Shown piece by piece: positions 57,982 through 60,900 of a DNA stretch of 64,000 bases. The notes beneath the pieces were generated by a model, which searched no databases, was not told the origin of the DNA, and saw only the letters and a program-made list of their open reading frames with translations. The stretch is from NCBI RefSeq assembly GCF_020520425.1, contig NC_079492.1:64657671-64721670 (forward strand), read 5' to 3'. Numbering within the stretch: the first letter of the stretch is position 1; each line of letters opens with the position of its first letter. The DNA is from Spinacia oleracea. Its lineage: Eukaryota; Streptophyta; Magnoliopsida; Caryophyllales; Amaranthaceae. The translations under genes and the position numbers were made by a program.

Positions 57982-60900
57982 ATGTGTTCTTTCTCTTCAA
58001 TCATCTTCATCTCTTTCTTTCTACTGCAACAAAACACAGCTGCTGACAAAATCACAGCTACCAAGTTCCTAACAGACCCTGAAACTATAGTCTCCAGTAA
58101 TGGTGCTTTTAAACTGGGTTTCTTTAGCCCCCCTAACTCGACATACCGTTATGTTGGGATCTGGTACAACAAACTCCCTACGAATAACGTTATGTGGGTT
58201 GCTAACAGGAGCAACCCTCTGAATAATTCTTCTGGTGGAGCAATCAAAATTTCAGAGGATGGTAATCTTCGAGTCCTGAATGCTCGAAACCAGACAGTCT
58301 GGTTCTCAAATGTTACAATCTCCAGCCAAACTAATAGAAGTGTTGTATCAAAAGCGCGGCTCTTAGACTCCGGCAACTTAGTTTTGATGGGAGTTGAGGG
58401 GATGATCTTATGGCAGAGTTTTAAGCATCCAAGTGATACAGCTTTGCCAAATATGAAACTAACTGTCACTAAGGATTCTGATAGGACGAAGATGTTACAG
58501 GTAAGGGTGGTCATAACAGGGTATCCGGTCAAGATTTTAGGAACCGGAACCTGAACCTGTTGCAACAGGTTCCTGAAAATGGGAACCGGAATTGGAACCT
58601 GTTGCAACAGGTTCCTGAAAATGATAACCAGGTTCCGGTTCAGCATGTTCTTTCAAAAATATAAATAAGTTATAACTAATTTATTGAAATATTTTTACTT
58701 TATGGTTTGACCTTTGATTGTTTTATAGTTTGGGCTTAAATTGAAATTCTATACTTATGTTTTTCTAAAAATTAGGGTGGATTGATTTATATTTTGAGCG
58801 GTATTTTTATGTCATCCGATCCCTTATTTTGGGTACCCGTTTCGAAAAATTTAGAACCGAAATCGAAACTTGTTACAACAAGTTCCCTATTTTGTTACCC
58901 AGAACCGGAACTTGCAAAACAGGTTCCGAAACCGCAGGTTCCGTTTCTGATTCAAAGTACCCTAACTTTTTGCTCACCCATGGTTACATGGTTACAGGCA
59001 TGGAATGGCCCGTCAGACCCGTCTTATGGGAGGTTCTCTGTTGGCATCGATTCCTTTGCCTTCCCTCAACTTATCATATTTGATGGGGATCAGCCCTACT
59101 GGAGGAGTGGACCGTGGAATGGCCACATCTTTACTGCAATACAAAATAACGAGACTGACGATTACATTGATGCAGGGTTCATTCTTGAGAATGACAGGCA
59201 AGGCACCATTTCATTAACATATTCTTCTACTAATCAGTCAGTGATCTCAAACTACGGGTTGAGCTATCGAGGAACTTTGACACAGAGATGGTGGGATGAG
59301 AGAGAAAGAAGGTGGAAGGTCTCCTGGGAAGTGCCACACACAAAGTGTGACATTTATGGCAAGTGTGGAGCATTCGGAAGCTGTAACATGAAGAATTCTC
59401 CAATTTGTCGGTGCTTGAAAGGATTCAAACCAAGAAATGAGTTGGAATGGAGTAAAGGAAACTGGAAAAACGGGTGCATGAGAAGAACAGCATTGCAATG
59501 TGGAAGAGAAAGTGGGAAAGAAGATGGTTTTTTCAGGGTTAACGCAGTTAAGGTGCCTGACAATGCTAACTGGTTAATTGGATTGGATGAAAGTGAATGC
59601 AGAAACCAGTGCTTGAAGAATTGCTCATGTCTAGCTTATGTCTTAGATATAAGTGTTGGATGTATGTCATGGGACAAAGATTTGATTGACACAGAGGAGT
59701 TGGTCGCAGGTGGGGTGAATCTTCACCTAAAGCTGGCACATTCTGAACTAGGTACTGAACTTTTTCTTATCTGGCAAACCTAGATATGCTTTTTTGGGTG
59801 CGAATGAGCCAAGGGCAATACATTGGGTGAGGGATTCGAACTTGACACATCTCATACACAGGCCTTCCGTCTTAACCACTATGCCAAAACCTCATTGATA
59901 TACACCTCCATATATGTGTGCTTAGACTACATGCTAAAACGGTCTTTTGGATTGGTTCAGTTTAGGTCACATTCGGATGAAGATTCATTCGGTTCTGTTT
60001 GGGTCAGTTTGAGTTAGCTCATATTTGGGTTTATAGTCATGATCATTTTGAGGTTTGGACTTTTTCAATTTGGGTAAATAGTCATGTAACTCCGATGTAC
60101 ATTTCCGATGGAGCCAAAGATTCATTTGTTCTTTTGGTTGTAGGATGTAATGGACTAAATCAAAATGGCCCTTAAAACCTCTTCGCTTCCTTTCCATGAA
60201 GTAGAAGATGCCCGTCCCGTTGTCGTCCCGTTGTCGTCCCGTTGTCGTCTCGTTATCGCTTTTGGGTCAATTGGAAAAAACCTCTCTGCAAATGCAAGGG
60301 TAAAGTTGCGTACACCCGACCCCCCTTACCCCGTTTCTTGCGGGAGCCTTTTTGAGGCAATAGGGTAATGATAATGATAATGAGAGTCATGTAACTCCGG
60401 ATTGAGTCGGGTAATTTAGCTTGGGTAATTTGATGGGGGTTAGTTTTTGTTGTGTGTTGTGATTTCTCACTTCTTTTCCTAAGCAGGAAGCATTATGAAG
60501 CTCATTCATTATGGTTTGCAGGAAATAGCAGTGAAAAAGTAGCAGGTATTGCAGCAATAGGGAGCTTACTTGGAGCAGCTACAGTGGTAACACTTATATT
60601 CATTCTGTGGAGATGCCAAGTCCAAAAAAAACAAGGTAATGTATTCATAATTGTATAGTAAAAACAATGCCTTAAACCATCATAAGAATATAGCCTAAAG
60701 TTTCTGCACTTACTGATAATTTAACATCTGAAGGAAATAAAATTCAGAGGAAAAAGACAGTGTCAGACGTTCTTGGAATAGAAGAAAACCAAGATCAAAT
60801 CGAAGAGGTTCCACTGTTCGAATTCGAAAGGGTGGTGACAATAACAAACAACTTCCACGACTCTAATAAGCTTGGACGAGGGGGATTTGGTCTAGTTTAC

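Follow-up and report, generated by a model that had tools for sequence, protein, structure and literature searches.

In spinach, a non-autonomous hAT element (a MITE) appears to have landed in an exon of a gene for an S-domain receptor kinase, at a target ending in AGG, and to have been kept as an intron; we put the probability of this reading at about 0.87. The gene, called gene 5 here, lies in a stretch of 64,000 nucleotides that was analysed as a whole (the window). The reading has its basis in the element itself, the family to which it belongs, the target-site duplications, the empty site of gene 5, intact reading frames, five further insertions of like geometry, and a public gene model for one of the six genes. 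From these we infer that the gene 5 transcript is probably spliced in the plant, that splicing would take place in five of the six genes concerned, and that selection is likely to have filtered the insertions.

Table 1. Gene 5 and its insert (positions in the window), with five further family copies (genome locations). TSD, target-site duplication; a slash within a splice site marks the exon-intron junction.
Feature	Location	Strand	Details
S-domain receptor-like kinase gene 5, exon 1, 5' part	57982..58500	+	open frame; paralogue and orthologue alignments
Left TSD GTTACAGG	58494..58501	+	last G, 58501, is intron base 1
Predicted gene 5 insert-intron, 497 nt	58501..58997	+	C6:64716171-64716667; donor CAG/GTAAGG, acceptor TTACAG/G
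Putative hAT-type non-autonomous element (MITE), 481 bp	58502..58982	+	ends TAAGGGTG / CTCACCCATG; family TAGGGGTG / CTCACCCCTA
Branch-point-like CTAAC, A at 58965	58962..58966	+	33 nt before intron end; inside the element's own 3' end
Pyrimidine-rich TTTTTGCTCACCC	58967..58979	+	terminal sequence of the element
Imperfect extra 8-mer copy GTTACATG	58983..58990	+	between element end and true duplicate
Right TSD GTTACAGG	58991..58998	+	source of acceptor AG and first exonic G
Gene 5 exon 1, 3' part	58998..59751	+	
Gene 5, remaining six exons	60522-60635, 60734-60903, 60985-61195, 61283-61520, 61646-61796, 61894-62211	+	transmembrane and kinase parts (Pfam)
GRAS/RAM1-like	L065, G000:C2:113940356-113943370	-	TSD ATCACAGG; element reverse; intron 626 nt, C2:113941243-113941868
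PPR-1, PPR with E motif	L106+L111, C3:851700-855100		TSD AATGCAGG; element reverse, 559 bp; intron C3:852626-853192; 598 codons stop to stop
ABCC10-like transporter	L027, C3:4189718-4193015		sense TSD CATTCAGG; element reverse, 457 bp; intron C3:4191095-4191559; 445 codons
PPR-2, second PPR	L132+L125, C2:112602800-112604140		TSD ATTGTAGG/ATTGCAGG; element forward, 784 bp; intron C2:112603062-112603853; at least 183 codons
BAHD acyltransferase	L129+L133, C6:149094285-149095560		TSD ATTACAGG; element forward, 293-bp internally deleted copy; intron C6:149094567-149094867; 242 codons

The initial annotation had described an exon interrupted at an otherwise uninterrupted site by an insert with the same 8-mer on both sides, the two copies of which supply a donor and an acceptor; these borders were confirmed to the base (Table 1). 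As it had also stated, removal of the 497 nt restores Met-Leu-Gln-Ala-Trp-Asn at the join and gives an 824-residue frame. With six further introns taken out, the 824 codons carry B_lectin, S_locus_glycop, PAN_2 and kinase domains (Pfam); left in place, the insert stops the frame 17 codons after its start, with a stop codon that ends at 58554.

The insert is one full-length copy among many in its family: in the spinach genome (894,210,420 bases searched) at least 39 other places were scored as its relatives (40 scored among 317 candidates, and 40 among 340). All 16 other copies with clean ends are flanked by an 8-bp duplication (7-8 of 8 bases matching, 12 perfect), against none of 240 crossed pairs. 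A target duplication of 8 bp is the signature of the hAT superfamily, the short terminal inverted repeats of which are of the (C/T)A(G/A)GGGTG type. Both features are found in the window copy and in the family (typical of the 16 other copies are a start TAGGGGTGAGC and an end GCTCACCCCTA; the window copy has TAAGGGTGGTC / GCTCACCCATG), which supports assignment of the insert as a putative hAT-type non-autonomous element, and so the hAT-like label first given to it. Among the 16 other copies, a YTRAY motif occurs at the plus end in all 16 and at the minus end in 7, as against 17-26% in shuffles. Two family copies (L009 and L022) lie inside retrotransposon-like open frames, and by eye these read as nested insertions.

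The insert's splice signals rank high in their surroundings. By matrices that draw on 21 introns, all from this gene family, and are therefore a rough guide, the donor ranks second of 100 GTs in the exon region and the acceptor second of 108 AGs. The motif CTAAC is followed by TTTTTGCTC, with no AG up to the acceptor, and all of this consists of the element's own terminal bases; at motif level, the insert has the GT-AG ends and the branch-point-like motif of a U2-type intron. Relative to the family, the window copy carries TAAGGG for TAGGGG, which turns GTAGGG into GTAAGG, and GTGGTC in place of an inner GTGAGC, a possible competing donor; such changes fit selection in their direction, and would be too few to serve as proof. 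Two features count against the intron reading. High A+T is favoured in plant introns, and that of the insert (63%) is lower than in 20 of the 21 neighbouring introns (58-73%); in addition, on the acceptor side the element's end is altered and an extra 8-mer is present. This 8-mer probably arose by later tandem duplication. Positions 58983-58998 resemble a tandem duplication of ATGGTTAC, made after the element's CTA end had become ATG.

The proposed course of events is simple: a non-autonomous hAT element would have entered the receptor kinase exon in the spinach lineage, with duplication of 8 bp; given an 8-mer of the form NNNNNAGG, the left border would become AG/G+TA(G/A)GG, a GT donor that is half host and half element; the right border would become ...CCCCTA NNNNNAG/G, with the duplicate's AG placed soon after the element's branch-point-like motif and pyrimidine stretch; splicing would delete the element and one duplicate, leaving the message as it was before insertion. 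Since coding would be restored exactly, the insertion would be tolerated and retained as an intron. Exact removal requires that the 8-mer end in AGG, because its last G and the element's T together make the GT; either orientation should work, because the same terminal inverted repeat stands at both ends.

This refines one claim of the initial annotation, that related elements in the window could become introns whenever the target supplies an AG: AG does not suffice, and AGG is needed for exact removal. Two other hAT-like elements in the window (10390-11437 and 53030-53920) have perfect 8-bp duplications, ATTACATT and CTTTTACC, neither of which ends in AGG; these are unfit for exact removal. 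A weaker hAT-like candidate, with a 7/8 duplication, lies at 7663-9405. A further hAT-like element (39051-39441, right end placed by eye) starts TAAGGGTG after CTATGAAG (39043), and CTATGAAG occurs again at 39442; the last G of that 8-mer would give a GTAAGG donor, and its ending in AAG gives no exact acceptor.

The site itself is uninterrupted in 27 of 30 S-domain loci fetched from the spinach genome (L032-L046, L048-L057, L059 and L060), the other three (gene 5's own two halves and a piece that falls short of the site) being uninformative. The comparison with orthologues that the initial annotation had proposed also yields an empty site: ...MLQAW(N/K)GP... is unbroken in proteins from Chenopodium quinoa (P0126 and P0050) and Bienertia (P0002), and in P0001 and P0003, all of them protein sequences, in which gene structure is not visible as such. 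P0003 is probably genomic, with the exon uninterrupted there, because it appears to read on into intron sequence (its ...LGKC can be taken as a GTAAG donor after the S-domain exon). Gene 5 groups with quinoa P0126 in the tree (support 98/90). The idea that an older, unrelated intron stood at this position, and was later replaced or filled by the element, thus has very little to recommend it: no point in its support was found; the duplications abut both splice sites, and apart from the extra 8-mer no intron sequence is foreign to the element; and the unbroken paralogues make it unlikely unless gene 5 alone had the intron, just as the orthologous proteins speak against it. It was rejected on these grounds. 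Less credible still is an assembly error that put the element into the exon. A single assembly is the source, but the 8-bp duplication is perfect, there are five similar cases, and the element differs by 16-20% from all 16 of the copies in the comparison, and is therefore no mis-joined repeat; this explanation was likewise rejected.

Divergence also bears on the age of the insertion. The end branch of the window copy is 0.127 long in a tree of 17 copies and 0.15 in larger trees, against 0.007-0.080 for the 16 other copies, a contrast biased to an unknown degree because those copies were picked for resembling the window copy. In a 20-copy tree the four intron copies included have longer end branches than any other (S-RLK 0.15, PPR-1 0.14, GRAS 0.12 and ABCC 0.092; the rest at most 0.080). 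At 0.127-0.147 changes per site, a neutral coding sequence of 2.47 kb would be expected to hold about 11-12 stops, and gene 5 has none; this argument from age presumes that the window copy is no recent transposition from an old source since lost. Its frame is undamaged, and 680 of 822 aligned residues (83%) are identical to those of the quinoa orthologue. If the age is right, an intact frame around so old an element implies splicing of the message over the greater part of that period. The argument looks weaker for the GRAS and PPR-1 genes, where the chance of zero stops is 0.011 and 0.005 at full age, and 0.08 and 0.05 at half age.

These observations also weigh on the alternative that the insertion broke gene 5, leaving a pseudogene whose splice-like borders are a coincidence of the AGG target. 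We consider this improbable, and rejected it: the early stop of the unspliced frame speaks for it, as does the fact that no transcript was seen; against it stand the long frame, preserved at 83% identity despite the old element, the high rank of both splice sites, and the five parallel cases, in one of which a public protein matches. No 824-residue spinach protein of gene 5 is among the best 120 of 3810 protein matches listed, which says little because no S-domain protein is named as spinach either there or among the 120 matches listed in a second search; the closest by identity in that second listing, P0004, is the unspliced right-hand frame. Another S-domain gene of the window, gene 4 (35400-36364), is probably damaged, since its S-domain is without the residues that match about 190-269 of gene 5.

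The preferred reading, an intron made by insertion, does not stand on gene 5 alone. The initial annotation had suggested a genome search for other copies that exactly fill introns; this found five, by geometry and intact frame, in which removal of the element and one duplicate restores a gene, both orientations being represented (Table 1). The ABCC10-like case was found blind to its duplication. The mechanism first proposed, in which the duplicated target serves as a splice site, thereby gains the support of five more genes, and the host is an angiosperm (spinach), as had been supposed. Single Pfam domains span the join in three cases (GRAS, ABC_membrane and Transferase). The GRAS/RAM1-like gene reads through the join as 487 residues, and a public spinach protein, P0230, equals this locus once the element is exactly spliced out and another internal stretch of 108 nt is removed; P0230 is an NCBI 'isoform X2' model, and such isoform models lean on RNA reads. 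Among the six genes, it is for the GRAS gene only that a public protein matches the spliced form. All six introns begin GTA and end AG, and in all six, gene 5 included, YTRAY lies 25-35 nt before the acceptor; in the ABCC copy an AG follows 4 nt after the branch-point-like A, which counts against that case. The S-RLK, GRAS, PPR-1 and ABCC copies, all of full length, differ from one another by 16.5-20.6%; the PPR-2 element has the end of the family (80-82% over about 109 bp) and a different core.

One may then ask whether the family is special. Patterns with the family's left end after AGG gave 9 genome hits (reversed control 5) and, in another run, 41 (control 7); its right end before NNNNNAGG gave 27 (control 4); further copies came from similarity alone. 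Thirteen family copies with a sense 8-mer ending in AGG were seen (the window copy, L027, L062, L064, L065, L102, L106 and L124-L129), in five of which one end only was resolved (L064, L124, L126, L127 and L128); an insertion antisense to a gene was excluded from the count for that gene. Six of the 13 lie in coding exons. Of the 33 copies that have another 8-mer and were resolved at either end, none was seen in a host exon and two were in retrotransposon-like frames; these 33 come from 29 and 12 fetched copies, less seven unresolved (4/29 and 3/12) and with L027 counted among the AGG copies, and the nine resolved of the 12 were judged on about 150 bases of flank per side. Fisher's test gives p = 1.8e-4 for this difference (6.5e-4 with PPR-2 left out, 5/12), to be taken as a guide, as pattern searches supplied most of the AGG set (the exceptions being the window copy, which was the starting point, and L027, which came by similarity), and similarity alone supplied the other set. 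In the flanks, an open stretch of 92 codons beside L128 (one side) has no Pfam match, nor have frames of 100-116 codons beside the non-AGG copies L003, L005 and L012 (80 residues of L012 tested).

Much the strongest competitor supposes survivorship and nothing more: whichever hAT element lands on an exonic AGG target would do equally well, and selection removed the rest, so that this family is not specially fit. We hold it a serious possibility, somewhat short of even odds. The geometry needs only AGG and a terminal TA; the start of the terminal repeat is common to many hAT families; and plant spliceosomes readily intronize fresh retrotransposon insertions, as the available part of the ONSEN study indicates (PMC12112155). 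The counts run the other way: 6/13 AGG copies of the family in coding exons, against 0/52 AGG hits of other terminal-repeat types from the 41-hit and 27-hit runs (sense, host exon), p = 2e-5, or p = 1.3e-4 with L148 counted as exonic (1/52); without PPR-2 these become 1e-4 and 6e-4. For most of the 52, however, the judgement used a single flank, and the reversed-pattern controls indicate that some are no transposons. Five more such hits, all from the 9-hit run (L061, L063, L066, L067 and L069), had no coding look, and left-flank frames of 62-79 codons (sense L071 and L096; antisense L079, L090 and L095) had no Pfam match; by eye there is a sense frame of 93 codons (L105), and there are antisense frames of 94 codons (L075, L076 and L099), retrotransposon-like.

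Two of the other-type hits deserve separate mention. The antisense flank of L090 (C3:157671141-157671461) resembles, by eye, the end of an LRR receptor gene, which the insertion has possibly broken. L148 and L149 (C6:118085980-118087900, minus strand) belong to another hAT type, TTTTGAACACCCCTA, with the duplication CTCATAGG; the adjoining open frame of 81 codons has a weak RNaseH-like Pfam match below cut-off, and the element's left end was not found within 1.67 kb. This is a possible seventh case, in another family.

Put together, the evidence inclines us, at slightly better than an even chance, to see in the spinach hAT MITE the first introner family of a land plant, one that would have seeded many introns in the Spinacia lineage over perhaps 10-20 million years. 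The ends of the MITE would then come pre-equipped, with half a donor, a branch point and a pyrimidine tract, and insertion into an exon on a duplicated NNNNNAGG would create an exact intron in either orientation; some of the introns so seeded would by now be too diverged for similarity surveys. The origin of new spliceosomal introns is a long-standing question, and spinach offers several insertions of one defined element with clear empty sites, open to test by existing RNA data and simple reporter constructs. The rule for finding more fits in one line: a hAT end that abuts a duplicated ...AGG in an exon.

Precedents are instructive. A Ds element in the maize shrunken2 gene, in the 1994 account of Giroux et al., is reportedly spliced as a new intron, with alternative splicing, in a single recent mutant allele. 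The likeness to spinach is close: a hAT element with an 8-bp duplication, reportedly removed precisely from an angiosperm exon together with one duplicate. The difference is that one recent mutant allele is replaced in spinach by old insertions of one MITE family in six intact genes. Because the maize intron was reported in 1994, the principle of a transposon-made intron in angiosperms is not new. That Ds-made intron (1994) and a rice case are on record in the accessible part of PMC3443670, which also sets out a model of intron gain by transposon insertion at AGGT sites. As in that model, so far as the same part presents it, the duplicated target in spinach yields both splice sites and the message is unchanged; unlike it, the spinach target is AGG only, and the terminal T of the element completes the donor. 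ONSEN insertions in Arabidopsis have been intronized, according to the available portion of PMC12112155, and like those of spinach are plant transposon insertions spliced out as introns; there, however, the element is an LTR retrotransposon and the insertions are fresh laboratory ones, and the exact geometry based on the duplication is a feature of the spinach family.

Introners offer a further parallel. Algae and fungi, among others, have families of them (Gozashti et al. 2022, PMC9860276); in the sections of that survey at hand, intron-making transposon families were found in 5% of species and in no land plant, an introner family being recognized by at least four mutually similar elements that fill introns end to end, in non-paralogous genes and in either orientation. 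Four spinach copies (S-RLK, GRAS, PPR-1 and ABCC) reach that number, as assessed outside the paper's BLAST pipeline and PPR paralogy aside, so that by number the family would qualify, subject to RNA proof. As for mobility and many gains, the family has many copies (40 scored among 317 candidates and 40 among 340), and six introns are few. Like the introners of the survey, as described in those sections, the spinach family would form whole introns in unrelated genes, with terminal inverted repeats, target duplications, splice sites to which element and duplication both contribute, and either orientation; unlike them, only six spinach cases have been found so far, these have diverged strongly, and no host exon holds any of the other copies examined. 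An 'introner-like' family with several introns in a land plant would contradict the survey's count of none, as far as those sections go. In the open-licence literature we found no paper on a multi-gene intron-making family in spinach or another angiosperm; the kind is known, and a multi-gene family of this kind in a flowering plant appears to be new.
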